Shown here: positions 45,559 to 61,465 of the stretch, piece after piece | Layout: each line of letters opens with the position of its first letter | Position numbering within the stretch: position 1 is the stretch's first letter | From: Nocardioides scoriae | GTDB taxonomy: Bacteria; Actinomycetota; Actinomycetes; Propionibacteriales; Nocardioidaceae | Reading direction: 5' to 3' | Assembly (NCBI RefSeq): GCF_900104965.1 | Contig: NZ_LT629757.1 | Location: 2,356,001-2,420,000, forward strand | DNA: 64,000 nucleotides | Position numbers and translations under genes: made by a program | The notes under the pieces: generated by a model | Told to the model about the DNA's origin: nothing | Databases searched by the model: none | What the model saw: the letters and a program-made list of their open reading frames with translations, nothing else

Positions 45559-46247
45559 CAGCCCACGCCCCCGACCTCGTTCTGGTCGAGCTCCTCGTGG
45601 CGCCCCCCGGAGGAGAAGGGCTTGTGGCGGTCGGCGAGCGGGATCAGGTCGCCGGCGGGCTCGGAGTAGCCGATGCTGACCAGCTTCTCGCCCTCGAAGG
45701 TGAACGACGTGAGGCTGGCCAGGGTGCAGTGGCGCTTGCGCGGGTCGTGCAGGAACGAGCGCTTCTCGGCGCGCAGCCGCGTGGTCCAGATCGGCAGCTG
45801 GTGGGAGACGATCACCGCCTCGTGGCCCTCGGCCTCCTTGCGGGCGTCGAGCACGGCCGGCCACATCCGGGCGACGATGTCGGCGTACGCCTCCCCCCAC
45901 GACGGGCGGAACGGGTTCCACATGTGCTTCCACATCCCGGGGCTGCGGAGCACGGACTTGCGGAAGCGGAACGGCTTGCCCTCGAAGATGCTGCTCGACT
46001 CCAGGACCCGCTCGTCGAGGCGGACCTCGAGGCCGCGCACGCGCGCCAGGGGTGCGGCCGTCTCCTGGGCCCGCTCCAGCGGCGAGGAGACGATGAGCAC
46101 GATGTCGCGGTCGCCGACGCGCATCGCGACGCGGTCGGCCATGGCGCGACCGCGCTCGGAGAGGTGGTAGCCCTCGGAGCGGCCGTAGAGGATGCCGTCG
46201 GGGTTGTGCACCTCGCCGTGGCGCAGCAGGTGGACGGTGGTCTTCAC
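45558..46247 (-). CDS. Histidine-phosphatase (phosphoglycerate-mutase-like) protein
   Basis: This 229-residue branch-1 histidine phosphatase has the catalytic LLRHGEV and the second catalytic His in IVSHQLPIW. It sits between hemL and resA, the same place as the phosphoglycerate-mutase-like gene in the corresponding M. tuberculosis cluster, which suggests a role connected to this operon, but the substrate is unknown. GTG 46247 overlaps the hemL stop. Confidence 0.88.
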
Positions 46248-47617
46248 GGGCGGGCTCCTTCACAGGCCTGCGCGGCGGCCTCGGCGGCGGCCGGCAGGGC
46301 GTCGATGACGTGCTGCAGGGCGTGGTCGTCGTGGGCGGCGGAGAGGAACCACGACTCGAAGGCGCTGGGCGGCAGGTAGACGCCGCGGTCGAGCATCGCG
46401 TGGAAGAAGGCCCGGAAGACCGACGTGTCCTGGCTCGAGGCGCCGGCGAAGTCGACGACCCGGTCCACGCGCGGGGCGAAGAAGACGCTGAACATGCTGC
46501 CGTCGTGCTGCACCAGGTGGGGCACGCCGGCCCGGTCGAGCGCCTCGCCGACCGCGGTCGAGAGCGTCGTGGCCGCCGCGTCGACGTGGGCGTAGACCTC
46601 GTCGGTGGCCAGCCGCAGCGTGGTCAGCCCGGCGGTGGTCGCGATCGGGTTCCCCGAGAGGGTGCCGGCCTGGTATACGGGGCCCTGCGGCGAGAGCATC
46701 CCCATCACGTCGGCCCGGCCGCCGAAGGCCGCGGCCGGGAACCCGCCGCCCATCACCTTGCCGAAGGTCATCAGGTCCGGGCGCCAGCCCTCGTGGGCGC
46801 CGTCGAGGCCCCACTGGCCCTGGCGCGAGACGCGGAAGCCGGTCATCACCTCGTCGGAGACGAACAGCGCGCCGTGGCGGGCGCAGGTCTCGGCGAGGAA
46901 CTGGTTGAAGCCCGGCTCGGGCGGGACCACTCCCATGTTGCCGGGCGAGGCCTCGGTGACCAGGCAGGCGATCTCGGAGCCGCGCTCGGCGAAGACCCGC
47001 TCGACGGCCGCGCGGTCGTTGTAGGGCAGCACCAGCGTGGCCTCGACCGACGCGGCCGGCACGCCGGGCGTGCCCGCGACCGCATGGGTGGCCAGGCCCG
47101 AGCCGGCCTCGGCCAGCAGCGAGTCGACGTGGCCGTGGTAGCAGCCGGCGAACTTCACGACCACGTCGCGCCCGGTGAACCCGCGGGCCAGCCGGATCGC
47201 CGACATCGTCGCCTCGGTGCCCGAGGAGACCAGGCGCACCTGGTCGACGGGCGTGCGGGCGACGATCTCCTCGGCGAGCTCGACCTCGCTGCGCGACGGG
47301 GTGCCGTACGACGTGCCGCGGGTCACCGCGTCCTGCACCGCGGCCTGGACCTCGGGGTGGGCGTGCCCCAGGAGCATCGGCCCCCACGAGCAGATCAGGT
47401 CGACGTAGTCGTGGCCGTCGACGTCGGTCAGCCAGGCACCGCGGCCCGAGACCATGAAGCGGGGCGTGCCGCCGACCGCGTTGAAGGCCCGCACCGGCGA
47501 GTTGACGCCGCCCGGCGTGACCCGGTGGGCGCGCTCGAACCACTCGGCCGACGCGGTGCTCGACCGGGTCGTGGCTCCGGTCGGGGCAGGGTCGGGTGAG
47601 GTCGTGGTGTCAGGCAC
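46244..47617 (-). CDS. hemL: Glutamate-1-semialdehyde 2,1-aminomutase
   Basis: This 457-residue PLP enzyme makes 5-aminolevulinate from glutamate-1-semialdehyde, right after HemA. It shows [10 protein letters not shown], the [16 protein letters not shown] cofactor motif, DEVMTGFR and the PLP lysine in [12 protein letters not shown]. The GTG at 47617 (PDTTTSPDP...) is preferred because the reading frame farther upstream is low-complexity and has no domain. It heads the hemL-phosphatase-resA-ccdA-resB-ccsB operon, so heme synthesis and cytochrome c assembly are co-expressed. Confidence 0.95.
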
Positions 47618-47783
47618 GCCGCCATTCTCCCCGACCGTCCCCACGGAACCGAACCGGCTGCCGCGACGACGGCGCTCCGAGGGCTGAGAATCTGGTGAAG
47701 ACCTGACCCGTGTGCCCGGGTCTGGCCCTATTGTCGGTGAGCCACTGTGCACCGTGTGGCATGGGTCACAGCAGGGGTTTGTG

Positions 47784-47811
47784 CGTGACCACGTGAGGGA
47801 AGTCTCGTTGA
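47784..47811 (+). promoter_or_regulatory. Sigma-BldN-type promoter upstream of the secreted transglycosylase
   Basis: CGTGAC (47784-47789), a 16-base spacer and CGTTGA (47806-47811) match the Streptomyces sigma-BldN consensus CGTAAC-N16-CGTTGA at 11 of 12 bases with exact spacing. The ATG follows 72 bases after the -10. The remaining part of the 266-base gap 47618-47883 shows no other clear signal. No riboswitch was recognised. Confidence 0.65.
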
Positions 47812-47883
47812 GGCATCCACGGTGTCCCTCGGGGAGACAGGTCACCGGCAGAGCACCACCAGGGGAGAGGGAGCACCACCACC

Positions 47884-49146
47884 ATGACGTCGCGTTCCAT
47901 GTCACGTCGCACCAAGGCGATCACGCTCGTGCCGCTCGCCCTGCTGTCGGGCGTCTGGACGGCCAGCCTGGTCACCTCGAGCGCCAACGCCGACCAGCAG
48001 GCCGCGGCCGCCGAGTCGCTGCCGGACGGCACCAGCGTCCCGTCCGACGCCATCGAGGCGCCCGCGAGCGTGCCGGTCGCCGGCATCATCGCCCCGGCCG
48101 TGCCGCAGGGCGGCGCCGACCAGGTCGTCTCCGGCGCCTCCAGCAACGGCATCCCCGCCCCGGCACTGTCGGCCTACCAGCGCGCCGGCCAGATCATCGA
48201 CGCCGCCGACAAGAGCTGCAACCTCCCCTGGGAGATGGTCGCGGCGATCGGTCGCATCGAGTCCGACCACGGCCGCTACGGCGGCAACACCCTCACCGAC
48301 GACGGCGTGAGCAAGCCCGGCATCTACGGCATCGCCCTCAACGGCAAGAACGGCACCCAGGCCATCAACGACACCGACGGCGGCCAGCTCGACCAGGACA
48401 CGGTGTACGACCGTGCCGTCGGACCGATGCAGTTCATCCCCTCCACCTGGCAGGTCGTCAAGGTCGACGCCGACGGCGACGACGAGCGCAACCCGCAGGA
48501 CATCGACGACGCGTCGCTGGCCACCGCGGTCTACCTCTGCTCCGGCAAGGACGACCTCAGCAAGCGGGCCGGCCAGGAGGCGGCGGTCTACCGCTACAAC
48601 CACAGCCGCGACTACGTGAACCTCGTGCTGCGGATCATGCTGGCCTACTCCTCGGGCGACTACACCGCGGTCCCCGCGGGCACCCAGGGCGGCACCTCCT
48701 TCTCCCCCAGCTACTCCTCCTCCATCCAGAAGTCCTACGCGGTCGCCAAGGAGCGCAAGGCCCGCGCCACCAAGCTGCGCCAGCAGCGCGCGGCCCAGCA
48801 ATCCGGCGGCAGCAGCTCCGGCGGCACCGGCCTGACCAGCGGCACCTCCGGCGGCTCCACCGGGATCGTGCCCGGCACCTCCGGCGGCACCGGCGGCTCG
48901 ACCGGCAGCGGAGGCGACGGATCGCTCAGCGGCGTCGTGGGCGGCGTGGTCGGCGGCATCACCGGTGGCGGCGGCGGGGGCGGCAGCACGGGCGGTGGCG
49001 GTGGTGGCGGCGGCGGCAGCACGCCCGCCCCGGCTCCCGACCCGGTCACCCCGGTGCTGACCTTCGCCCAGGCGCAGGCCCAGTGCATCGCCCAGGGCGT
49101 GAGCCCTCTCAACCTCACCAAGTGCATCAACGACCTGCTCTCCTGA
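47884..49146 (+). CDS. Secreted lytic transglycosylase-like protein with Gly/Ser-rich linker
   Basis: This 420-residue exported protein has a signal peptide (about residues 1-36) and a lytic-transglycosylase/SLT-like domain (about 95-270). The likely catalytic glutamate is E126 in [15 protein letters not shown], followed by [10 protein letters not shown]. Then comes a Lys/Arg/Gln segment, a long Gly/Ser/Thr linker (about 300-385) and a short tail with two Cys (AQCIAQ...TKCINDLLS) that may form a disulfide. The RBS is a GGGGAGAGGGAG run ten bases before the ATG. It likely remodels peptidoglycan. It is monocistronic and ends at a strong terminator. The upstream sigma-BldN-type promoter suggests developmental or cell-surface control. 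Confidence 0.88.
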
Positions 49147-49152
49147 GCCAGG

Positions 49153-49194
49153 CACGACGAAGCCCCCGGCCGGTCGGCCGGGGGCTTCGTCGTG
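49153..49194. terminator. Very strong bidirectional terminator
   Basis: A perfect 20-base-arm inverted repeat (arm CACGACGAAGCCCCCGGCCG) with a two-base centre lies between the convergent transglycosylase and hemB stops. The inner bases would open to form the loop. Confidence 0.85.
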
Positions 49195-49206
49195 GTCGGG
49201 CCCTGC

Positions 49207-50187
49207 TCAGTCGCGCAGCATCCGGGCGGCGTCGAGCGCCCAGTAGGTGAGGATCACGTCCGCCCCGGCCCGCCGGATCGAGGTGAGCACCTCCATGACC
49301 GCCGCGTCGCGGTCGATCCAGCCGTGGGCGCCGGCCGCCTCCACCATGGCGTACTCGCCCGAGACGTTGTACGCCGCGACCGGCACGTCGACCGCCTCGC
49401 GGACCGCGCTCAGCACGTCGAGGTAGGCCAGGGCCGGCTTGACCATGACGATGTCGGCGCCCTCGGCGACGTCCAGGCGGGCCTCGCGCACGCCCTCGAG
49501 CCGGTTGGGGGTGTCCTGCTGGTAGGTCCGGCGGTCGCCCTGCAGCGAGGAGTTGACGGCCTCGCGGAAGGGGCCGAAGAACGCGGAGGCGTACTTCGCG
49601 GAGTACGCCAGGATGCCGACGCCCGCGTGCTCCTCGGCGTCGAGCGCCCGGCGGATCACGCCGACCTGGCCGTCCATCATGCCGCTCGGGGCGACCAGGT
49701 CGACCCCGGCTGCGGCGTGGGCCAGCGCCATCTGCCCGTAGATCTCCAGGGTGCGGTCGTTGTCGACCCAGCCGTCGGGGTCGAGGACGCCGCAGTGGCC
49801 GTGGTCGGTGAACTCGTCCAGGCACAGGTCGGACATCACGGTGAGCCCGTCCCCCACCTCGGCCACGACGTCGGTGATCGCGACGTTGAGCACGCCCTGC
49901 GGGTCGAGCGCGCCGCTGCCCTCCGCGTCCTTGTGCTCGGGCAGGCCGAACAGCATCACGCCGCCCAGCCCGGCCGCGACGGCGTCGGAGGCCGCCTGCC
50001 TGAGCGAGTCGCGGGTGTGCTGCAGGACCCCGGGCATGCTCGAGATCTCCCGGGGCTCGGTGAGCCCCTCCCCCACGAACAGCGGCAGCACCAGCTGCGA
50101 GGGGCGCAGGTGGGTCTCGGCCACCATCCGCCGCAGCGCCGCCGTGCGCCGCAGCCGGCGCGGCCTGACCTCGGGGAAGCCCGCCAC
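49207..50187 (-). CDS. hemB: Delta-aminolevulinic acid dehydratase (porphobilinogen synthase)
   Basis: This 326-residue enzyme condenses two aminolevulinates into porphobilinogen. It has [16 protein letters not shown] (metal-site cysteines with an Asp in place of one), the Schiff-base lysines in [16 protein letters not shown] and [10 protein letters not shown], and a C-terminal [10 protein letters not shown]. The GTG at 50187 shares one base with the hemD stop (TAGTG). It ends the rex-hemACDB operon at the strong terminator. Confidence 0.96.
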
Positions 50188-51890
50188 TACTTCGAGCTCG
50201 CCTTGCGGCGGGTCGAGGGACGGCGGTCCGAGGGCTTGGTGACCGGCTGGCCCGACTCGAGCAGCGAGGAGCGGCGCGCGGCACCGAAGTCGGCGAGGGC
50301 GTCGACCAGGGACTCGACCGACGGCTCGGAGGCCATCACGTCGACCCGCAGGCCGTGCTCCTCGGCGGTCTTGGCGGTCGCGGGACCGATCACGCCGATC
50401 ACGGTCGAGGTGTGCGGCTTGCCCGCGATCCCGACCAGGTTGCGCACGGTCGAGGAGGAGGTGAACACGACCGCGTCGAACTTGCCGGTCTTGATCGCCT
50501 CGCGGGTCGGCGCCGGCGGCGGGGCGGCCCGCACGGTGCGGTAGGCCGTCACGTCGTCGACCTCCCAGCCCAGCTCCACCAGACCGGCGACCAGGGTCTC
50601 GGTCGCGATGTCGGCGCGGGGCAGGAAGACGCGGTTGATCGGGTCCAGCACGTCGTCGTAGGGCGGCCAGTCCTCGAGCAGCCCGCGGGCGGACTGCTCG
50701 CCCGAGGGGATGAGGTCGGCCTTGAGGCCCCAGTCGGACAGCGAGGCGGCGGTCTTCTCGCCGACCGCGGCGATCTTGAGGCCGGAGAAGGCACGAGCGT
50801 CGAGGCCGTACTCCTCGAACTTCTCGCGCACGGCGCGCACCGCGTTGACCGAGGTGAACGCGATCCACTCGTAGCGGCCCTCGACCAGGCCGCGCACGGC
50901 CTTGTCCATCTGCAGCGGGTTGCGGGGCGGCTCGACCGAGATGGTCGGCACCTCCTCGGGGGTGGCGCCGTGGCCGCGCAGCCGCGACGACAGCGCACCG
51001 GCCTGCTCCTTGGTGCGGGGCACCAGCACGCGCCAGCCGAACAGCGGCTTGGTCTCGAACCACGACAGCGCGTCGCGCTGTTCGACGACCGCGCCGACCA
51101 CGGTCACGGCCGGCGGCGTCATGCCGGCCGCGCGGGCGTCCGCGGCGATCTGGCCCAGCGTGGAGACCACGGTCTCCTGGGTGGTCAGGGTGCCGGTGCG
51201 GGTCATCGACACCGGGGTGTCGACCGAGCGGCCGGCGGCGACCAGCTCGTCGGCGATCTCGCCGATGGCGCCGACGGCCGAGAGCAGCACCAGCGTCGGG
51301 TGGGCGGCGTACGCCGACCAGTCGACCTTGGCGTCGCTGCACGTCACCACGGCCACCTCGCGGTGGTTCTTGGTGGTCAGCGGGATGCCGGCGTACGCCG
51401 GGACGGCGGTCACCGAGGAGACGCCGGAGACGATCTCGAAGCCGACGTCGGCCTTGGTGCAGGCCAGCGCCTCCTCGGGACCGGAGGCGTAGAGGAAGGG
51501 GTCGCCGGAGAGCAGCCGGACCACGCGACGGCCGGTCTTGGCCTGGCGCACCACGACCTTGGCGCGGGCGGCGTGGGTGAGCGGCTGGCCGTCCTCGCCG
51601 AACCCGCCGTCGACGAAGACCGGGCCCTCGGGCTCGACCGCGGCGGCCTCGTCACCCGTGGCCTCGGCGGCCTCGACGGGCGCGGGCAGGCCGAGCACGC
51701 TGCGCACCAGCGCCTCGTGGTCGGGGATCTCGGTCACGACCACCTCCGCCTCGCGGAGCAGCTCGACGGCGCGAACCGTCAGCAGACCGGGGTCGCCGGG
51801 ACCGCTGCCCACGAAGGAGACCCACTTGACGGGCCGTCCTGCGGCAGCAGTGCCGGCAGCGGAGGTGCTGGGGGTGTTCTGCTTGGTCAC
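50187..51890 (-). CDS. hemD: Uroporphyrinogen-III synthase fused to a divergent uroporphyrinogen-III methyltransferase domain
   Basis: This 567-residue fusion has an N-terminal SUMT/CobA-like domain (about 20-275) and a C-terminal uroporphyrinogen-III synthase (about 285-545). The first [14 protein letters not shown] loop is normal, but the SAM-binding region reads [16 protein letters not shown] (125-140) instead of the usual GGDPF followed by GRGGEE, and there is an insert at about 68-105. Methyltransferase activity is therefore uncertain. The HemD half shows [17 protein letters not shown] and TSSSTVRNL. The GTG at 51890 is used. It lies 70 bases after hemC. Confidence 0.93.
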
Positions 51891-51960
51891 AATCGCCTTC
51901 TTGGTGCTTCGGTTCTGGGTGCTGGTGGGTGCTGCAGGTGGTGCGCGAGCTCGCCCGGCG

Positions 51961-52950
51961 CTAGGTGGCCGGCCTCTCGGAGATCAGGTCGGCCGCGCCG
52001 TCGGCCAGCATCTCGGCGGCCAGGGACCGTCCGAGGGCGACCGGGTCGTCGAGCGGCCCGGCGGCGGAGCGGCGTACGGCCAGGGTCCCGTCGGGCGAGA
52101 GCGCGACCGCACGGACCCACAGTTCGTCACCGACCTCCCCCATGGCAACTTCGGCCAGGGCACCGACGGGCGCGGAGCAGCCCGCCTCGAGCTCGGCGAG
52201 CAGGACGCGCTCGACCGTGACGCACGCACGGGTGGGCGCGTCGTCCAGCGCGGTGGCCACGATCGCGACGAGGTCGTCGTCGGCGCGGCACTCCAGGGCC
52301 AGGGCGCCCTGCCCGGGGGCGGGCAGCACCTGGATCGGGTCGAGGACCTCGGTGGCCTCCTCGACCCGGCCGAGCCGGTTGAGGCCGGCCCGGGCGAGCA
52401 CGACCGCGTCGAGCTCGCCGTCGCGGACCTTGGCGATCCGGGTGTCGACGTTGCCGCGGATCCCGACGAGCTGCACGCCGAGGCCGAGGGCCTCGATCTG
52501 GGCGACCCGGCGCGGGGCGCCGGTGCCGACCGTGGCGCCCTGCGGCAGCTCGCCGAGGGTGAGGCCGTCGCGGGCCACCACGACGTCGCGGGGGTCCTCG
52601 CGCGGCGGCACGGCGGCCAGCGCGATGCCCTCGGGCGGGGCGGTCGGCAGGTCCTTGAGCGAGTGCACGGCGAGGTCGACCTCGCCGCGGAGCAGGGCGT
52701 CGCGCAGCGCGCTGACGAAGACGCCGGTGCCGCCCATCTGGGCCAGCGGCTCGCGCGAGACGTCGCCGTGGGTGCTGATCGGCACCAGCTCGGTGACCAG
52801 GCCGGTGCGCTCGGTGAGCAGGTCGGCCACGGTGGTGCTCTGGGTGCGGGCGAGCGCGGAGGCGCGGGTGCCGATGCGCACGACGCGGCTGCCGGGGGTC
52901 GCGGCGGCGGACGTGCCGGCGTCCTGGAGGGAGGTCTCGGTGGTGGTCAC
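51961..52950 (-). CDS. hemC: Hydroxymethylbilane synthase
   Basis: This 329-residue enzyme assembles four porphobilinogens into the linear tetrapyrrole. It has RIGTRASALARTQ, VDLAVHSLKDLPT, the GTGAPRRVAQ region (a Ser-to-Ala form of GTSSPRR-type motifs) and the cofactor-attachment Cys in ELEAGCSAPVGA. The GTG at 52950 overlaps the hemA stop. About 20 N-terminal residues precede the fold. Confidence 0.95.
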   Translation of the reverse strand: MTTTETSLQDAGTSAAATPGSRVVRIGTRASALARTQSTTVADLLTERTGLVTELVPISTHGDVSREPLAQMGGTGVFVSALRDALLRGEVDLAVHSLKDLPTAPPEGIALAAVPPREDPRDVVVARDGLTLGELPQGATVGTGAPRRVAQIEALGLGVQLVGIRGNVDTRIAKVRDGELDAVVLARAGLNRLGRVEEATEVLDPIQVLPAPGQGALALECRADDDLVAIVATALDDAPTRACVTVERVLLAELEAGCSAPVGALAEVAMGEVGDELWVRAVALSPDGTLAVRRSAAGPLDDPVALGRSLAAEMLADGAADLISERPAT

Positions 52951-54245
52951 GGGCGCTCCACCTCCGCCCGGGTGACGGCCTCGACGGCCTCGGGGTCGAG
53001 GGCGAACAGCTCCGCGAGCGCGGCGGCGTACGAGACGGCGCCGGACTCGTTGGCCAGCTGCTTGACCCGCACGGTCGGCTGGTGGAGCAGCTTGTCGACG
53101 ACCCGTCGCAGGGTGCGCTCGACCTCGCCGCGGCTGGTGTCGTCGAGGCCGGGCAGCCGCTGCGCCAGGCGCGCCAGCTCGGACTCGACCACACCGGTGG
53201 CCATGGTGCGCAGCGCGACGACGGTGGGGGTCACGCTCTGGCTGCGCCGGGCGGCCAGGAAGGCGGCCAGCTCCTGGCTGACGATGGTGCGGACCCCGTC
53301 GACGTCGGCCCCGCCGGGCGCGCCCTCGAGCTCGGCGGCCAGGGTGTCGAGCGCGACCAGCTGCACGCCGGGCAGGTCGGCCACGGCCGGGTCGACGTCG
53401 CGCGGCAGCGCCAGGTCGAGCACCGACAGCGGTCGGGTCGGGTCGGTGCGGCGCGACGCGATCGCCTCGACCGAGAGCACCTGGCCGGCGGCGCCGGTGC
53501 AGGAGACGACGACGTCCACCGGCTCGGACCAGGAGGCGAGGTCGGCCAGGGAGATCGCGGTGGCGTCGTACTGCAGGGCGAGGCGGGCGGCGCGCTCCGG
53601 GGAGCGGTTGGCCACCGTCACCGACGCCGCTCCGGCGCGCGTCACCGTCGCCACCGTCAGGCCGGCCATCGAGCCGGCGCCGATGACCAGCACCCGCTTG
53701 CCGGTGAGGTCGCCGACGTGCGGCACGGCGCGCTCCAGCGCGGCCGCGACGAGGCTGGGGGCGACGCGGTCGATGTCGGTCTCGGCGTGGGAGCGCTTGC
53801 CCACGCGCAGCGCCTGCTGGAACAGCACGTTGAGGGCGGGACCGACGGTGCCGGCCTCCTGGCCGACGCGCAGCGCCTCGCGGGCCTGGCCGAGGATCTG
53901 GCTCTCGCCGAGGACCATCGAGTCGAGCCCGGCCGCGACGTGGAACAGGTGGGAGACCGCGCCGTCGTCGTAGTGGACGTAGAGGTGCTCCAGCACCGCG
54001 TCGGGGTGCTCGCCGGTGCGCTCGCCGAGCAGCCGCGAGATCGCCTCGACGCTGCCGTGGAAGCGGTCGACGTCGGCGTAGACCTCGGTGCGGTTGCAGG
54101 TCGAGATGACCGTCGCCTCGGTGACGTGGTCGTTGTCGCTGACCTGGCGGATCAGCTTCTGCACGCCCTCGGCGTCGAGGGCGACGCGCTCGAGGACCGG
54201 CACGGGTGCCGTCTTGTGGGAGATGCCCACGACCAGGACGCTCAT
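52947..54245 (-). CDS. hemA: Glutamyl-tRNA reductase
   Basis: This 432-residue enzyme begins heme synthesis by reducing glutamyl-tRNA(Glu). It has the N-terminal VVGISHKTAPV, catalytic Cys50 in VISTCNRTEVY, the LGESQILGQ motif, the NADPH loop VIGAGSMA and a C-terminal dimerisation helix. The ATG at 54245 overlaps the rex stop, so heme production is coupled to Rex. Confidence 0.97.
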   Translation of the reverse strand: MSVLVVGISHKTAPVPVLERVALDAEGVQKLIRQVSDNDHVTEATVISTCNRTEVYADVDRFHGSVEAISRLLGERTGEHPDAVLEHLYVHYDDGAVSHLFHVAAGLDSMVLGESQILGQAREALRVGQEAGTVGPALNVLFQQALRVGKRSHAETDIDRVAPSLVAAALERAVPHVGDLTGKRVLVIGAGSMAGLTVATVTRAGAASVTVANRSPERAARLALQYDATAISLADLASWSEPVDVVVSCTGAAGQVLSVEAIASRRTDPTRPLSVLDLALPRDVDPAVADLPGVQLVALDTLAAELEGAPGGADVDGVRTIVSQELAAFLAARRSQSVTPTVVALRTMATGVVESELARLAQRLPGLDDTSRGEVERTLRRVVDKLLHQPTVRVKQLANESGAVSYAAALAELFALDPEAVEAVTRAEVERP

Positions 54246-54934
54246 CGCACGCCTCCGACCGGCTGGCCCAGGTCGGCCACGACCTCGGCCACCGTCGCGG
54301 GCGCGGAGGACTTGCGCTGCTCGTGGTAGGCGAGGATCTGCAGCTCGCTGGACAGGTCGACGCGGCGCACGTCGACGCCCTCGGGCAGCGAGAGGATCGT
54401 CGGCGCGAAGTTGAGGATGCTGCGGATGCCGACCGCGACCATGCGGTCGGCGACGTCCTGGGCCGCCACGGCCGGGGTGGCGATGACGCCGATCCCGACG
54501 CCGTGCTCGGCCACGACCGCCTCGAGCTCGTCGAAGCCGCGGATCTCGATGCCGGCCACCACGTCACCGTGACGGGCGGTGTCGGCGTCGAGCAGGGCCA
54601 CGGTGCGGAAGCCGCGGGAGGAGAAGCCGGAGTAGTTGGCCAGGGCGTGGCCCAGGTTGCCGATGCCGACCACGACCACGGGCCAGTCCTGGGTCAGGCC
54701 GATCTCGCGGGAGATCTGGTAGCGGAGGTACTCCACGTCGTAGCCGACGCCGCGGGTGCCGTAGGAACCGAGGTGGGACAGGTCCTTGCGCAGCTTGGCG
54801 CTGTTGACGCCGGCGGCGGTCGCGAGCTCGAGGCTGGAGCACGTCGTGGTGCCTGACTCGCTCATCGAGTTGAGCGCCCTCAGGTAGACCGGGAGACGGG
54901 CCACCGTCGCCTCGGGGATCCTGGTTCCGCTCAC
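54242..54934 (-). CDS. rex: Redox-sensing transcriptional repressor Rex
   Basis: This 230-residue regulator senses NADH/NAD+. It has an N-terminal winged-helix region (about 10-80, with NSAKLRKDLSHLGSYGTRGVGYD as its recognition part) and a Rossmann domain (VVGIGNLGHALANYSGF). The typical Rex C-terminal helix for domain swapping is present. GTG at 54934 starts it. It heads rex-hemA-hemC-hemD-hemB, the order known from Streptomyces, and has a Rex-operator-like site in its own promoter. Confidence 0.97.
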   Translation of the reverse strand: MSGTRIPEATVARLPVYLRALNSMSESGTTTCSSLELATAAGVNSAKLRKDLSHLGSYGTRGVGYDVEYLRYQISREIGLTQDWPVVVVGIGNLGHALANYSGFSSRGFRTVALLDADTARHGDVVAGIEIRGFDELEAVVAEHGVGIGVIATPAVAAQDVADRMVAVGIRSILNFAPTILSLPEGVDVRRVDLSSELQILAYHEQRKSSAPATVAEVVADLGQPVGGVR

Positions 54935-54990
54935 GCTGCGACACTCTCCAGACGATCTGCGCTGGTCGTCCCGCGTTGGACGCCTCAGTC

Positions 54991-55019
54991 ACTCTAGGAG
55001 TTTGTGAACGTGCGAACAA
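54991..55019 (-). promoter_or_regulatory. rex promoter with overlapping Rex operator
   Basis: On the minus strand a -35 (TTGTTC, 55014-55019) and -10 (TAGAGT, 54991-54996) are 17 bases apart. The 18-base site TTGTGAACGTGCGAACAA (55002-55019) covers the -35 and spacer and matches the Rex operator TGTGAACGCGTTCACA at 12 of 16 positions. This suggests autorepression at high NADH clearance. Confidence 0.7.
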
Positions 55020-55109
55020 ACCGACGGTGACCATCGGCTACCACAGGTGAGAATCCTCACCGACTCGGGCCCCCTACCGAACGGTCCTGCGCCCGGGTCG
55101 GCCCCGAGG

Positions 55110-55364
55110 TCAGGCCAGCGCGGCGCGCAGCCGACGCTCGTCGACGCGCCAGAAGTCGTGGCGCCGGCCGTCGACCAGGGTGACGGGGACCTGCTCGCCG
55201 TAGGCCTCGAGCAGGTCCGTCGAGGAGTCGACGTCGACCTCGGTGAAGGACTCCCCCAGGTCGTCGCAGACCCGCTGCACGACCTCGCGCGCCGCCTCGC
55301 ACAGGTGGCAGCCCGGACGCGAGTAGAGGGTGACGCGGGCCTCCCCCGCGGCAGCCGCGCTCAC
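55110..55364 (-). CDS. Glutaredoxin-like protein
   Basis: This 84-residue thioredoxin-fold protein has the active site GCHLCEAA (CxxC) and the cis-Pro region QVPVTLVDG. It belongs to the short glutaredoxin/YruB-like family seen next to rex in actinobacteria. The GTG at 55364 overlaps the stop of the acyl-CoA ligase gene. A redox role is likely but the partner is unknown. It ends 175 bases before rex. Confidence 0.87.
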   Translation of the reverse strand: MSAAAAGEARVTLYSRPGCHLCEAAREVVQRVCDDLGESFTEVDVDSSTDLLEAYGEQVPVTLVDGRRHDFWRVDERRLRAALA

Positions 55365-56962
55365 TGCAGGAGTCCCGCGTCGAGGCGACGGGCCGCGGCG
55401 CGCAGCCGGCCCTTCTGGATCTTGCCGGTGGCGGTGTAGGGCAGCTGGTCCACGACCTCGACCACGCCGGGCTGCTTGAAGCGGGCCAGCCGCTCCGCGC
55501 AGTGGCGGCGCACGAGGTCGGCGAGCTCGACGGGGTCGGCGCCGGGGGTCGCCGGCGTCACGTAGGCGACCACCGCCTCGCCGGTGTGCTCGTCGGGCAC
55601 GCCCACGACGGCGACGGCGGCGATCTCGGCCAGCTCGCCGACGACCTCCTCGACCTCGACCGGGAAGACGTTGAAGCCCGAGACGATGACCAGGTCCTTG
55701 ACCCGGTCGACGAGGTAGAGGTCGCCGTCGGGGTCGACCAGGCCGACGTCGCCGGTGGCCCACCAGCCGTCGGCGTCGGGCCCTCCGGCGCCGTCGGGCC
55801 AGTAGCCGGAGAACAGGTTGGCGCCGCGCAGCCAGATCTCGCCGGCGTCGTCGGGGCCGGTGGCACGCCCGGCCTCGTCGACCAGGCGGAGCTCGATGCC
55901 GGGCAGGGGGGCGCCCACCGACCGCGGTCGCAGCTCGCGGCTGCTCAGCGTCGAGGTGACGACCGGCGCCGCCTCGGTGAGGCCGTAGCCCTGGTGGACC
56001 TCCACCCCGGTGCGCTCGCTGAAGGCGGCGGTCAGGTCGGGCGGCAGCGGCGCGGAGCCGCTGAGCACGAGCCGCACCGGGCCGAGGCGGTCCTCCAGGC
56101 CCGGGACGGCCATCCACTGCGGGAACACGGGCGGGGCGACCGGCAGCACCGAGACCGCCTCGTCCTCGATGAGGTCCAGCGAGCTCTCGGCGTCGAAGCC
56201 GTCGACCAGCACCATCCGTGCGTGCTGGCGCAGCACCTGTCCGAGCACGGCGTTGAGGCCGTAGACGTGGTAGAGCGGCAGCACCCCCAGCACGACGTCG
56301 CGGCCGGTCACCATCGGCGGGTCGACCTGCGCGACCTGGTCGATGCTCGCGAGCAGCGCGCGGTGGGAGAGCATCGCCGCCCGGGGCCGGCCCGAGGCAC
56401 CGCTGGTGTAGAGCAGCACGGCCAGGCCCTCGGGGTCCGAGCGCTGCGGGACCGGACGCGCCTGCTTGGCCACCAGCTGGTCCCAGCCGCGCTCGCCGGG
56501 CGCCAGGGTGGTGCCGACCGTGACGATCCTCGGCCGGGTCGAGGGCTCGAGGCCGGCCGTCAGCATCGCCTCGCCAAGACCCTGCACGGCCGCGCGCACC
56601 GTGGTGATGGTGGAGGCGTCGGCGACGACCATGCGGGTGCCCGAGTCCACCAGCACCCGCACCAGCTCGCCGGTGACGCTGCGGGGGTTGACCGGCACCG
56701 CCACCATCCCGGCGCGCAGGGTGCCGAGGTAGGCCGCCACGAACTCGATCGTGTTGCCCGCCGCGATCATCACGCGGTAGCCCGCGACCATGCCGGCGTC
56801 GGTGAGGCCCTGGACCACGCGGGCGACCAGGTCGTCGAGCGCGGCCCAGGTGACCGAGCGGCCGGTGGACGCCTCGGAGAGAGCGATCTTGTGGGGTTCC
56901 TCGACGTGCGCCCGGGTCAGGAGATCGGCGACGTTGGACTCCATCGCAGGAGTGTGACACAT
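55361..56962 (-). CDS. AMP-forming acyl-CoA synthetase (FadD-like)
   Basis: This 533-residue ligase activates a carboxylic acid with ATP and CoA. It has LLYTSGASGRPRAAM (P-loop with Ala where Thr is common), the YGLTEAAPVV motif, GWWATGDVG and the C-terminal KIQKGRLR with the catalytic lysine. The substrate is probably a fatty acid but is not set by sequence. ATG 56962 is chosen because a GGGGGAGG site lies five bases before it; ATG 56944 (MESNVAD) is an alternative. It is coupled to the glutaredoxin gene and divergent from the HAD gene. Confidence 0.88.
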   Translation of the reverse strand: MCHTPAMESNVADLLTRAHVEEPHKIALSEASTGRSVTWAALDDLVARVVQGLTDAGMVAGYRVMIAAGNTIEFVAAYLGTLRAGMVAVPVNPRSVTGELVRVLVDSGTRMVVADASTITTVRAAVQGLGEAMLTAGLEPSTRPRIVTVGTTLAPGERGWDQLVAKQARPVPQRSDPEGLAVLLYTSGASGRPRAAMLSHRALLASIDQVAQVDPPMVTGRDVVLGVLPLYHVYGLNAVLGQVLRQHARMVLVDGFDAESSLDLIEDEAVSVLPVAPPVFPQWMAVPGLEDRLGPVRLVLSGSAPLPPDLTAAFSERTGVEVHQGYGLTEAAPVVTSTLSSRELRPRSVGAPLPGIELRLVDEAGRATGPDDAGEIWLRGANLFSGYWPDGAGGPDADGWWATGDVGLVDPDGDLYLVDRVKDLVIVSGFNVFPVEVEEVVGELAEIAAVAVVGVPDEHTGEAVVAYVTPATPGADPVELADLVRRHCAERLARFKQPGVVEVVDQLPYTATGKIQKGRLRAAARRLDAGLLQ

Positions 56963-56987
56963 CACGACCTCCCCCTAGTCTGTGCGG

Positions 56988-57893
56988 GTGACACCGCCCC
57001 GCACCCCCGCCGGCGGCCCGAGGCCGGGAGCCGCCGGCCCCAACCTGCGCCGTCGCTCCCAGCTCGCGGGCGAGGCCGCCGCCGCGATCGCGGAGGTCGA
57101 GAGCGCGCTCACCGTGGAGGCCGACTCCGGGTCGGCGGCCTTCTTCGACGTCGACAACACGGTCATGCAGGGCGCCTCGATCTTCCACCTCGCCCGCGGC
57201 CTGCACCGCCGCGAGTTCTTCACCACCAAGGACATCCTGGGCGCCGCCTGGAAGCAGGCCTACTTCCGCGTCGTGGGCGTCGAGGACCCCGACCACGTCG
57301 CCGACGCCCGGGCCTCGGCCCTGTCCTTCATCGCCGGCCACACCGTCGCCGAGCTGGAGTCGCTGGGCGAGGAGATCTTCGACGAGCGGATGGCCCACCG
57401 GATCTGGCCCGGCACCCGGGCGCTGGCCCAGCTGCACCTCGACCAGGGCCAGCGGGTCTGGCTGGTGACCGCCGCGCCCATCGAGATCGCCACCATCATC
57501 GCCCGGCGCCTGGGACTGACCGGTGCGCTCGGCACGGTGGCCGAGCACGTCGACGGCGTCTACACCGGCGCCCTGGTCGGCGAGATGCTGCACGGCTCGG
57601 CCAAGGCGGTGGCGGTGCGCGAGCTCGCGGACCGGTTCGACCTCGACCTGGCGCGCTGCTCGGCGTACTCCGACTCCTACAACGACCTGCCGATGCTCGA
57701 CATCGTCGGTGACCCCTGCGCCATCAACCCCGACGCCCGGCTGCGCGAGCACGCCCGCGCCCAGGGGTGGCGGGTCCGCGACTACCGCACCGGGCGCAAG
57801 GCGGCCCGCGCGGGCGTGTTCACCGCCGCGGTGGCCGGGGCGGTGGCCGGCACGGCCGCGGCCGGCGCGGCGCTGCGCCGCAAGGTCACCTGA
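56988..57893 (+). CDS. HAD-IB (SerB-like) phosphatase
   Basis: This 301-residue HAD-superfamily IB protein resembles phosphoserine phosphatase. The catalytic FFDVDNTVM, the VTAAP motif and the DSYNDLPML motif are all present. A C-terminal hydrophobic, Ala-rich helix (about 272-295) may anchor it to the membrane. GTG 56988 is preferred; GTG 56982 is in frame too. It is placed next to a BldN-like sigma gene, as in Streptomyces. The phosphate substrate is not known. Confidence 0.87.
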
Positions 57894-57934
57894 CCCCGTC
57901 CCGGGCGGGAGGCCGGAACGGTCCGTCGTACCGG

Positions 57935-57963
57935 TTCACATGTGTCCACTGGAGAAGTAGTCT
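57935..57963 (+). promoter_or_regulatory. Promoter of the BldN-like sigma gene
   Basis: TTCACA (57935-57940) and TAGTCT (57958-57963) are 17 bases apart and 47 bases before the ATG. They fit a housekeeping-type promoter. Confidence 0.5.
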
Positions 57964-58010
57964 CGCGGCAAGTTCAACAGGGACCCGGTCGCCGACCGGT
58001 GGGGGACGCC

Positions 58011-58739
58011 ATGCACGCAACCGCGGTCGAGGCCGGCCTCGACGCGCTGCGCCGTGCCGTCCTCGAGGTGCTGCTCAGCCTCGCCGACGGTCCCGCCGAC
58101 GGCGCCGGCCCGGGGCGTCCCGGCGGCACGGGCACGCCCATCGCCCCCGACGACCACGACCAGGCCGCCTCCTCGGCCCAGGACGAGGCCGAGCAGACCC
58201 GGCTGATCGCCCTGGTCGAGCTCGCACGCGGCGGCGACAGCGAGGCGTTCGGCCAGCTCTACGACCACTACCAGCCGAGCGTGTTCCGCTTCCTCTACTA
58301 CCGGGTCGGGTCGGTGCAGCTGGCCGAGGACCTCACCTCGGACACCTTCTTCCGGGCGCTGCGGGCGATGAGCTCGTTCCGCTGGCAGGGCAAGGACTTC
58401 GGCGCCTGGCTGATGACCATCGCGCGCAACCTGACGATGGACCACTACAAGGCCGGCCGCACCCGCCTGGAGCAGACGACCGAGGACATGAACACCCTCG
58501 ACACCAGCACGGAGGGTCCGGAGACCTCCGTGCTCGCGAGCCTCACCCACGAGGCGCTGCTCACGGCGCTGACCGAGCTGCCCACCGAGCAGCGCGAGTG
58601 CCTGGTGATGCGGTTCCTCCAGGGCCTGTCCATCGCCGAGACGGCCGAGGTCCTGGGCCGCAGCGCGGGAGCGGTCAAGCAGCTCCAGCTACGCGGCGTG
58701 CGCAACCTGGCCAAGGCGCTGCCGGAGGACCTCCGGTGA
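58011..58739 (+). CDS. bldN: BldN-like ECF sigma factor with N-terminal extension
   Basis: This 242-residue ECF-type sigma factor fits the BldN family. A hydrophilic extension of about 60 residues precedes the sigma2 region (about 78-155, including YDHYQPSVFRFLYYRVG and DLTSDTFFRALRAM) and sigma4 region (about 185-236, LPTEQRECLVMRFLQGLSIAETAEVL). Streptomyces sigma-BldN is made as a pro-protein with such an extension; whether this one is processed is inference. ATG 58011 follows GTGGGGGAC. It is followed by an RsbN-like membrane anti-sigma gene, and the rex-hem operon and HAD gene beside it match the Streptomyces neighbourhood. Confidence 0.85.
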   Translation: MHATAVEAGLDALRRAVLEVLLSLADGPADGAGPGRPGGTGTPIAPDDHDQAASSAQDEAEQTRLIALVELARGGDSEAFGQLYDHYQPSVFRFLYYRVGSVQLAEDLTSDTFFRALRAMSSFRWQGKDFGAWLMTIARNLTMDHYKAGRTRLEQTTEDMNTLDTSTEGPETSVLASLTHEALLTALTELPTEQRECLVMRFLQGLSIAETAEVLGRSAGAVKQLQLRGVRNLAKALPEDLR

Positions 58740-58785
58740 GCTGGGCGGCCCAGTCGGCTCACTCCGTGGACGGATCGGCGGACGG

Positions 58786-58814
58786 CATAACCTCGGTGAC
58801 GAAGACCTCGTTGA
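58786..58814 (+). promoter_or_regulatory. Sigma-BldN-type promoter upstream of the anti-sigma gene
   Basis: CATAAC (58786-58791), a 17-base spacer and CGTTGA (58809-58814) resemble the sigma-BldN consensus CGTAAC-N16-CGTTGA, with one mismatch and one extra spacer base. In Streptomyces rsbN is itself a sigma-BldN target. Confidence 0.6.
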
Positions 58815-58896
58815 CGGCTTCGTCAGCGTGCGTCACCCTCCCGGCCCCCGGCCGGGACCGTGGCCGCACTCCTTCCGCGCCACCAGGACGACCCGC

Positions 58897-60120
58897 ATGA
58901 GACCCCTCGCTCCCCCAGGCCGCGCTGCCGAGGAGTTCGCACGCGTCCTCGACGGGACGGCGACCCCGGAGCTGCGCGAGCGGTACGCCGCCCAGCTGCG
59001 CACGCTCGAGCGGGTGGCGCAGGTCCCGCTGGTCTCGCCCCGCCCCGCCTTCACCGCCGACCTGCGCGAGCAGCTGCTCCGTGCCGCCGAGACCGAGCTG
59101 GTCGCGGGGCCGTCGGCGACCGTCCACGAGCTGCGGCCGCGCGAGCAGGGCCGCACCTCGCGGCGCCTGGGCACCGTGGCCGCCAGCCTGGTGATCGTGG
59201 GCGGCTCGGCCGGCATGGCCGCCGCGGCCGGCGGATCCCTGCCGGGAGACGCGCTGTTCCCCGTCAAGCGCGGCACCGAGCAGGTGGGCACCGCCCTCAG
59301 CTTCGGCGACGTCGACAAGGGTCGCTCGCTGCTCGGCCAGGCCGGGACGCGGCTGTCCGAGGCGCAGGACCTGCAGGGCCGGGGTGCCGACGACGCCATG
59401 GTGGCGGGCTCGGTCGACGCGTTCCGCAGCGCGGCCGACGCCGGGTCGCAGCGGCTCTTCGACGCCTACGACACCGACCCCGACACCGCCTCGCTCACGC
59501 TGCTGCGCGGCTTCACCGCCACCCAGATGGACGTCCTCGCGGCGATGGCCCCCGAGGCCGACCCGACGGTGGCCTCCGCGCTCGCCGACGCCGCCGACAC
59601 CCTGGCCGACATCGACCAGGCGGCGCTGGTGCGCTGCGGCAGCTGCGGGCCCGACGAGGCCGTGACCACGCCGCAGGCGCTCTCCCAGGGTGCCGGTGCC
59701 GCGACCGTCGACTCGCTGCTGGCCCGCCCCGCCTCCCAGGCACGGGTCGACCGCGAGGCCATGGACGCGCTCCAGACCGCGCAGATCGAGCAGCTCCGCC
59801 GGATGGCCCAGCAGCGTGCCGGCGAGCTCGGCGACGCTCCGGCCGGGGTGCGCGACGCGCTCCCGACGATCCCCAGCACCCCGCACGGCCCCGTGGCGAG
59901 CACCCTCACCGCCGGCGCCCGCGCCGGCGACGGACTGCTGTCGGCCGACGGCCCGGTCGCGGGCCTGCTCGACGGCCCGGTGACCGAGCTGGTCACCGGC
60001 GTGACCGGCACCGTCACCCAGGTCACCGGCACGGTGCCGAAGACCGGCACCCCGCTCGACCAGCCGGTCCAGGACCTGACCGACACGGTCGACGGCGTCA
60101 CCAGCAGCGTCCTGCCCTGA
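58897..60120 (+). CDS. rsbN: RsbN-like membrane anti-sigma factor (DUF5667)
   Basis: This 407-residue single-pass membrane protein has a cytoplasmic N-terminal region (about 1-88) that likely binds sigma, a transmembrane helix (about 91-113) and a DUF5667-type extracytoplasmic region starting at GDALFPVKRG. A Thr/Val-Gly-rich tail follows. It lies 157 bases downstream of the sigma gene, behind a sigma-BldN-type promoter, as expected for an anti-sigma factor that limits its own activator. ATG 58897 follows an AGGA site. An in-frame GTG at 58828 would add a Pro/Arg-rich leader. Confidence 0.82.
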   Translation: MRPLAPPGRAAEEFARVLDGTATPELRERYAAQLRTLERVAQVPLVSPRPAFTADLREQLLRAAETELVAGPSATVHELRPREQGRTSRRLGTVAASLVIVGGSAGMAAAAGGSLPGDALFPVKRGTEQVGTALSFGDVDKGRSLLGQAGTRLSEAQDLQGRGADDAMVAGSVDAFRSAADAGSQRLFDAYDTDPDTASLTLLRGFTATQMDVLAAMAPEADPTVASALADAADTLADIDQAALVRCGSCGPDEAVTTPQALSQGAGAATVDSLLARPASQARVDREAMDALQTAQIEQLRRMAQQRAGELGDAPAGVRDALPTIPSTPHGPVASTLTAGARAGDGLLSADGPVAGLLDGPVTELVTGVTGTVTQVTGTVPKTGTPLDQPVQDLTDTVDGVTSSVLP

Positions 60121-60142
60121 CCGGCCCGCGTCCGCCGGTCGG

Positions 60143-61465
60143 TCAGCCGAAGACGGAGCGGCGCTTGACCAGCAGCGTGTAGAGCGTCTGCTGGATCGAC
60201 TCGCGCACCTGGTCGGTCACGTTGAACACCAGCATCGGGTCGTCGGCGGCGCCGGTGTCGTAGTCGTCGGTGCGGATCGGCTCGCCGAACTCGATGAGCC
60301 ACTTCGACGGCAGCGGGATCATGCCCAGCGGCCCGAGCAGGGGGAACAGCGGCGTGATCGGCAGGTAGGGGATGCCGAGCAGGCGCGCCAGCGACGGCAC
60401 GTTGCCGACCAGGGGGTAGATCTCCTCGGCGCCGACGACCGAGGTCGGCACGATCGGCACGCCGGTGCGGATGGCGGCCGAGACGAACCCGCCGCGACCG
60501 AAGCGCTGCAGCTTGTAGCGCTCGCTGAACGGCTTGCCGATGCCCTTGAAGCCCTCGGGCCACACGCCGACGAGCTCGCCGCCGCGCAGCATCCGCTCGG
60601 CGTCCTCGTTGCAGGCCAGGGTGGCGCCCCCGCGGCGGGCCAGGTCGGCCACGACGGGCAGCTTGAAGACCAGGTCGGCGCCCAGCGCCCGCAGGTGGCG
60701 ACCGGTCTGGTCGTGCACGCTCACCATGGTCATGAGGCCGTCGACCGGGACGGTGCCGGAGTGGTTCGACACCACCAGGGCGCCACCGTGGGCCGGGATG
60801 TTGTCGGCGCCGATGACGTCGATGCGGAACCACTTCTGCGCGAGCGGTCGCAGCGCCGCCAGCAGGAACTGCTCGGTCAGCTCCTCGTCGAAGCCGTAGT
60901 CGTCGACCGCGTAGTCACCGGTCAGCCGTCGGCGCAGGAACGCCAGGATCTCGGCCAGCCGGGGCTCCCAGCTGTCGCCGAACACCTCCTTGGCCGCGGA
61001 GGTGAAGCTGGAGAGCAGCTCTCGCGGCGAGATGCTGGGGCCGGGCAGGCGGTGCTCGGTGCGGGTGGGGGCGCGCTCGGGGACCAGCACCGGCGGGGCC
61101 GGCGTCCGGGGAGCCGCGGTGACGTCGTCGGCGCGCCGCGACTGGGCGGGCACGACGGGCGGCTCGCCCGGCTGGTCGAGGGGCTGCTCGACCGACCGCT
61201 CGACGGGGCGTTCGACCGGGCGTTCGACGGGGCCGTCCACCGCCTGATCGGCGGCACGGTCGCGGAGGGCGTCGGTCGGGGCCGGCGTCCGGTCCCGCGC
61301 GGGCACGGCCTCGGCCGCCTCGGCGGCCTCGACGGCGCGGGCACGCGCGGCCGACCGCGGCGCCAGGCTGCGGCTGTTGCTCGAGGGCTTGGACTCGCCC
61401 GTGCCGCGACCGGGGCGTCCGCGGGTGCCGATGGGGATGATCTCGGCGTCACCCATCGAGGTCAC
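60143..61465 (-). CDS. 1-Acylglycerol-3-phosphate O-acyltransferase-like protein (PlsC domain)
   Basis: This 440-residue protein has a C-terminal acyltransferase domain (about 205-430) with the catalytic NHSGTVPVDG histidine, the acyl-acceptor motif WPEGFKGIGKPF and VPTSVVGAEEIYP. The first 150 residues are low-complexity and hydrophilic (Pro/Arg/Ala/Glu, with a repeated PVER stretch). It is probably membrane-associated. The GTG at 61465 overlaps the epimerase stop; an ATG nine bases later (MGDAEIIPIG) is an equally plausible start. It likely acylates lysophosphatidic acid or a related lipid. Confidence 0.85.
   Translation of the reverse strand: MTSMGDAEIIPIGTRGRPGRGTGESKPSSNSRSLAPRSAARARAVEAAEAAEAVPARDRTPAPTDALRDRAADQAVDGPVERPVERPVERSVEQPLDQPGEPPVVPAQSRRADDVTAAPRTPAPPVLVPERAPTRTEHRLPGPSISPRELLSSFTSAAKEVFGDSWEPRLAEILAFLRRRLTGDYAVDDYGFDEELTEQFLLAALRPLAQKWFRIDVIGADNIPAHGGALVVSNHSGTVPVDGLMTMVSVHDQTGRHLRALGADLVFKLPVVADLARRGGATLACNEDAERMLRGGELVGVWPEGFKGIGKPFSERYKLQRFGRGGFVSAAIRTGVPIVPTSVVGAEEIYPLVGNVPSLARLLGIPYLPITPLFPLLGPLGMIPLPSKWLIEFGEPIRTDDYDTGAADDPMLVFNVTDQVRESIQQTLYTLLVKRRSVFG

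Follow-up and report, generated by a model that had tools for sequence, protein, structure and literature searches.

A probable sigma-BldN promoter in front of a putative secreted lytic transglycosylase in Nocardioides scoriae and its relatives

The sigma factor sigma-BldN is known from the aerial hyphae of Streptomyces. Its promoter motif, as printed in PMC2375139, is CGTAAC-N16-CGTTGA. In the survey by Chandra and Chater (PMC4255298), convincing BldN proteins, with well over 50% identity and local synteny, are reported only from morphologically complex genera; Nocardioides sp. JS614 was among the genomes surveyed, and the authors describe Nocardioides as mycelial and sporulating. The same source states that Streptomyces venezuelae rsbN has a BldN-dependent promoter of its own. 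For the presence of bldN in this lineage we claim no novelty; the new element is the target, a lytic transglycosylase (LT) that, within the lineage, appears to accompany sigma-BldN faithfully. No report of an LT as a sigma-BldN target was found in the literature searched, the scope of which lay outside the primary BldN papers (2000, 2012) and the 24 further BldN regions predicted by SIGffRid.

The DNA analysed here, referred to as the window, is a 64,000-nt stretch of the N. scoriae genome. The features on which the argument depends are the following:

46244-47626, minus strand: hemL, the divergent gene delimiting the promoter region (NF000818/TIGR00713)
47784-47789, plus strand: -35 element CGTGAC of the LT promoter, read from the sequence; CGTRAC is kept among LT orthologues
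47806-47811, plus strand: -10 element CGTTGA of the LT promoter; the spacer, 47790-47805, is 16 nt
47812-47883, plus strand: predicted LT 5' leader, with a predicted start position and a purine-rich ribosome-binding stretch
47884-49146, plus strand: gene for a putative secreted lytic transglycosylase, SLT_2/MltB-like (PF13406; Glu126 in GRIESDHGR)
57942-58739, plus strand: bldN orthologue, ECF sigma factor (TIGR02952, synteny); the start is possibly at 57999
58786-58814, plus strand: second sigma-BldN-type site, CATAAC-N17-CGTTGA, before rsbN; kept at bldN loci
58897-60120, plus strand: rsbN-like anti-sigma gene, DUF5667 (PF18915 found on the longer frame 58828-60120)

Very probably, 47784-47811 serves as the promoter of the LT gene, and the RNA polymerase that recognizes it carries the sigma-BldN orthologue, whose gene lies about 9 kb further downstream. 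This reading starts from what is seen directly in the genomes: a site that is conserved, a shared gene order, and the loss of sigma factor and LT together. In the mechanism that we propose, RsbN would release sigma-BldN in response to a presumed signal; the free sigma factor would then transcribe its own anti-sigma gene, rsbN, thereby establishing negative feedback, and would also transcribe the LT gene, the product of which would be exported and, in its presumed enzymatic and physiological role, cut peptidoglycan.

The bldN and rsbN genes lie about 9 kb downstream of the LT gene, on the same strand. The bldN product contains the Sigma70_r2 and r4 domains, and its best model is TIGR02952 (BldN family), at 172 bits, below the cut-off of 206 bits for that model. 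Its identity to proteins of a Streptomyces-like genus (g39), presumably Streptomyces itself, is 49-55%, and the gene order hemB-hemD-hemC-hemA-rex-HAD-bldN-rsbN-acyltransferase-epimerase is common to two loci of that genus, in both of which a tblastn match to rsbN stands at the equivalent place. Judged by sequence identity and gene order, the sigma factor is the syntenic BldN orthologue. The rsbN gene has the two marks of an RsbN gene, adjoining bldN and carrying a sigma-BldN-type site of its own, and its product is a putative anti-sigma factor.

Since sigma-BldN is predicted to act on its own anti-sigma gene, its specificity can be read at its own locus without an experiment. In bldN loci from named genomes (the best 80 of 281 relatives), a C(G/A)TAAC-N17-CGTT site scoring at least 10/12 was found 7-97 nt past the bldN stop codon in 80/80 cases, against 1.6 expected from letter shuffles, and an rsbN match lay directly downstream of the site in every one of these best 80; the motif therefore belongs to sigma-BldN. 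The sequence-only reading of the window had proposed a sigma-BldN-type site before rsbN with a matching -35 element. The site is real and is borne out by these 80 loci, but in the window it reads CATAAC-N17-CGTTGA, with one mismatch in the -35 element and a spacer of 17.

In the two Streptomyces-like loci, CGTAAC-N17-CGTTG precedes rsbN. A strict site common to Streptomyces-like genomes precedes, in the single locus read (L352), a gene for a response regulator of LuxR type with a WhiB gene next to it, an arrangement that fits bldM/whiD. In a class sample of 296 genomes, with bldN presence defined as E below 1e-40, the strict motif (CGTAACN15/16TCGTTGA) was present in 67 of the 118 that have bldN and in 13 of the 178 that lack it (Fisher p 3e-21, a nominal value, the genomes being related). 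The reversed control occurred in 3/118 and 23/178, respectively, and, being itself rarer in bldN genomes, indicates that base composition is not fully matched. Within the family, the same sample gave the strict motif in 20 of 22 genomes with bldN and in none of the five lacking it.

The LT site is intergenic, on the same strand as the LT gene and between it and the divergent hemL, with 72 nt from the last A of CGTTGA to the ATG at 47884. It agrees with CGTAAC-N16-CGTTGA in 11 of 12 bases, one base being off and the spacer of 16 identical, which confirms, at 47784-47811, the CGTGAC-N16-CGTTGA first noticed from the sequence. The transcript would be expected to start about 6-8 nt past the -10 element, at approximately 47817-47819. 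Within the 64-kb window, this is the only exact CGTNAC-N16-CGTTGA; when up to two mismatches are allowed, 10 matches appear where 18.4 would be expected, and as these loose matches show no excess over expectation, they are uninformative and were set aside.

The c-di-AMP riboswitch is associated with actinobacterial wall hydrolases. A riboswitch of this or another kind in the LT leader was considered and rejected, no Rfam match being found in 46000-60500 at E up to 1.

Counts from the N. scoriae genome alone, given below, are weak; the strength of the case comes from conservation. Among 46 LT orthologues, 42 have a site of at least 10/12 (2.1 expected from dinucleotide shuffles) and 37 a site of at least 11/12 (0.1 expected). 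Ten of 13 additional orthologues, a set without shuffles, also reach 10/12, and the pooled figure of 52/59 backs the sigma-BldN-type promoter that had been proposed before the LT gene. The remaining seven upstream regions reach only 8-9/12 (L029, L034, L035, L256, L375, L376 and L377) and count against it. The 59 orthologues exclude L013, an unlinked second LT copy of G005 with no site, and the LT of G340, also with no site; the bldN-linked copy of G005 (L386), at 12/12, is included. The best 80 of 281 bldN loci reach an LT in 35 cases, three of them with enough upstream DNA, and in 3/3 of these named loci (L069, L073 and L117) the site scores 11/12.

In the genus of the window, the -35 element of the LT site is mostly CGTGAC (CGTCAC in L020 and CGTAAC in L030), and elsewhere it is mostly CGTAAC. 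When 20 upstream regions of the genus are aligned, conservation is among the strongest at CGTGACC and TCGTT and is weaker at the final A. The site is kept in eight fetched genomes of family f3 (with CGTTAG or CGTTGT as the -10 element) and in one f4 genome, which makes up the whole f4 scope; seven further f4 genomes have distant LT relatives only and fall outside the site count. Among Streptomyces-like LT relatives, which are not orthologous, 29 of 30 score at most 9 and one scores 10 (CGGGAC-CGGTGA). In one genus, many of the LT promoters (L242-L255) have GTGAC inside the spacer, and the Streptomyces-like strict site likewise has GTGACC within its spacer; a second regulator could bind there.

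The gene and the sigma factor also tend to be present together. An LT match at E 1e-58 or better was found in 50 of 52 family members with bldN, and the two without one (G025 and G031, 92% and 82% complete) count against the association. In 43 of these 50 genomes, the LT gene and bldN point the same way, with the LT gene 7.7-27.9 kb upstream (median 9.5 kb), G005 being scored with the linked copy of its two LTs; in the other seven, the genes are on different contigs (six) or far apart (G286). In eight family members, all of which retain the hem cluster, no match to bldN was obtained at E 1e-20. For five (G135, G145, G262, G309 and G340), bldN was absent among the nine candidates scored per genome and beside the hem cluster, so their assignment leans also on gene order. 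In seven of the eight (G022, G023, G029, G135, G145, G262 and G309), the LT is missing from its place between hemL and hemB. A more distant LT relative is present elsewhere in four of the seven (G029 at E 3e-56; G145, G262 and G309 at about 1e-36); in G023, the contig stops before the place of bldN, and in G029, the HAD gene is also missing from its place. The eighth, G340, retains the LT in the hem cluster, with a promoter of only 7/12. Because LT and bldN stand at separate points of the cluster, their joint loss probably represents more than one event. Part of the linkage and of the joint loss could be attributable to the shared neighbourhood, and the genomes are not independent.

These comparisons bear on other readings of the site. 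It might be a promoter read by a different ECF sigma factor with a similar specificity, and sigma-BldN no more than a neighbour; the CGTGAC of the LT does differ from the CRTAAC of rsbN-type sites, and the 13 of 178 bldN-less genomes with the strict motif point the same way. We nevertheless consider this improbable, given that LTs of other genera bear CGTAAC, that the strict motif accompanies bldN within the family and is absent from the five bldN-less members in the class sample, and that in G340, where bldN was not found, the LT is retained and the site is gone. A chance match, with the LT transcribed from an ordinary housekeeping promoter alone, would fit the lack of excess among loose matches in the window and the weakness of single-genome counts. 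It is hard to reconcile with the conservation of the site, at similar distances, in 52 of the 59 orthologues, and a simple sigma-70 scan of 47600-49260 returned no site, although the scan is strict and shuffles also gave 0.0; we regard chance as very improbable.

A further possibility, compatible with transcription by sigma-BldN, is that the site is used and that the LT has additional promoters, sigma-BldN adding to a basal level. Streptomyces bldM, according to PMC4125116, has one sigma-BldN-dependent and one independent promoter. On the other side, the simple scan, which covers one promoter type, detected no other promoter-like site, and we hold such an arrangement to be possible, if rather unlikely.

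The LT protein has 420 residues from the start at 47884, and a signal peptide, with the reading SANA-DQQ, was recognized by eye. Residue E126 is invariant across 16 aligned orthologues, in the motif GR(I/V)ES(D/N)HG. A profile of LT orthologues matches the lytic murein transglycosylase 7qvd across the Glu motif (E 8e-5); the single LT sequence, searched by itself, found nothing. Against the NCBIfam MltB_2 model, it scores 29 bits, far below the cut-off of 248, and we therefore call it MltB-like and not MltB. From these features, we infer that the LT is exported and cuts peptidoglycan.

In the N. scoriae genome, CGTNAC-N15-18-CGTTGA has 12 matches against one for the reversed control, but three of the six other classed sites fall within coding sequence. 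A spacer of 17 with one mismatch allowed gives 34 matches (4 reversed), and 29 of the 30 that were read are inside called genes. As matches so often lie inside genes, the reversed control understates chance. The rsbN site was retained despite an in-gene call, because the overlying call is a 26-codon antisense frame. The genome-wide motif search that the sequence-only reading had suggested is positive in number and weak as evidence from one genome. Across 22 genomes of the genus with bldN, there are 236 matches to CGTNAC-N16/17-CGTTGA against 17 reversed, and in two genomes without bldN, 8 against 12. In G018 and G007 together, 40 of 42 sites were read, of which 30 are intergenic and 10 in genes, the other two being the LT sites. 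In one relative, about 20 sites are intergenic, most of them preceding genes for exported proteins.

A sample of putative targets was defined by CGTRAC sites whose nearest gene is at most 250 nt away. From 60 loci, 20 of which had been preselected for CGTRAC, 40 were kept; ten with CGTCAC or CGTTAC were set aside, and ten were dropped as coding, too far from a gene, or with no gene or too short a one. An N-terminal hydrophobic segment, scored by a simple hydrophobicity rule, is present in 27/40 target genes and 6/47 neighbours (p 1.6e-7). The start codon lies 6-7 nt past CGTTGA in nine of the 40 (L153, L155, L160, L169, L170, L198, L199, L204 and L211), which suggests leaderless transcripts from sigma-BldN promoters. 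Pfam searches with 35 of the 40 targets identified S15 peptidases (six), MlaE permeases (two), an ABC ATPase, a penicillin amidase, a lipase and a glyoxalase, as well as STAS, beta-helix, BNR and metK products, and 19 of the 35 match nothing. In L156, L167, L192, L201 and L202, the genes behind the sigma-BldN-type sites encode MlaE permeases or ABC ATPases, perhaps of mce-type lipid transport (assigned by Pfam in L156, L192 and L202, and judged by sequence in L167 and L201). In two genomes, a site stands 143 nt before metK, encoding S-adenosylmethionine synthetase (L164, assigned by Pfam, and L191, judged from sequence).

With a spacer of 16 and at most one mismatch to CGTRACC-N15-CGTTGA, seven of eight matches in the N. 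scoriae genome are intergenic, against one match in the reversed control. These seven belong to the LT, a subtilase (L302), a secreted protein of 288 residues (L305), a short-chain dehydrogenase (L001), a small protein (L304), L301, where no gene follows on the strand of the site, and L007. The L305 protein shares 231/288 identical residues with target L207 of G005. The plausible sigma-BldN target set in this genome is a smaller one, at about seven, but the small regulon proposed earlier gains only partial support, given the 236 matches against 17 reversed in the genus. The further proposal that the regulon remodels peptidoglycan likewise gains partial support, with the LT as one putative output; the sampled targets are mostly varied exported and membrane proteins, together with MlaE-type permeases and a likely small RNA.

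The only full CGTAAC-N16-CGTTGA of the N. scoriae genome is that of L007, beside guaA and outside the window. At L007:1501-1661, this full site is followed by a likely small RNA of about 100-130 nt with hairpins, the loops of which are mostly CTCCCTCCC. No protein gene lies downstream of the site in L007 or its homologues, and the last hairpin, a stable one, is present in 13 loci, with guaA inside the fetched 3 kb in 11 of them:

Small-RNA loci: L007; homologues L210, L194, L197, L240, L241, L359, L364, L366-L369 and L371

RNAalifold on the alignment supports only the last hairpin, with 8 pairs, 4 of them changed on both sides. Four loci searched against Rfam gave no match at gathering scores and none credible at E up to 5. 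The likely RNA resembles the C-rich-loop small RNAs of actinobacteria (6C). Pairing of the C-rich loops with the LT leader was considered and rejected, its -24.7 kcal/mol standing beside -23.4 and -28.6 for two of 14 other gene starts in the window. In other families, the strict sites of L360, L361 and L363 stand before hairpins whose loops read CCACCCCC, directly behind a gene that by eye resembles an ABC transporter; these hairpins may belong to a related small RNA.

The LT appears to be a core target of sigma-BldN that is specific to this lineage. Tentatively, and with less than even confidence, we suggest that the older role of sigma-BldN, preserved in Nocardioidaceae, is to run a programme for export and the envelope, comprising the LT as core target, the anti-sigma feedback and the C-rich-loop small RNA beside guaA, the aerial-sheath (chaplin and rodlin) role in Streptomyces being a later specialization. 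A wall lyase that adjoins sigma-BldN and is lost with it across the family would be a concrete target outside Streptomyces and a simple handle on the role of this developmental sigma factor there, for which the bldN-less relatives are ready-made natural knock-outs.

Among known systems, the LT shares the domain and the ESDxGR-type Glu motif of MltB-type lytic transglycosylases (PF13406 SLT_2; 7qvd), but unlike these, it is predicted to be secreted and has a low-complexity Gly/Ser stretch. The promoter motif of Streptomyces coelicolor sigma-E presumably differs from the sigma-BldN-type motif found here. The sigma-E regulon of cell-envelope stress, as described in PMC6767563, likewise has an ECF sigma factor feeding envelope genes, although the sigma factor is a different one. 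The Streptomyces sigma-BldN/RsbN system, with its bldM p1, chaplin, rodlin and rsbN promoters, has in common with this locus the orthologous sigma factor, the two-part motif and the rsbN promoter; unlike in Streptomyces, the putative core target here is an LT encoded between hemL and hemB.
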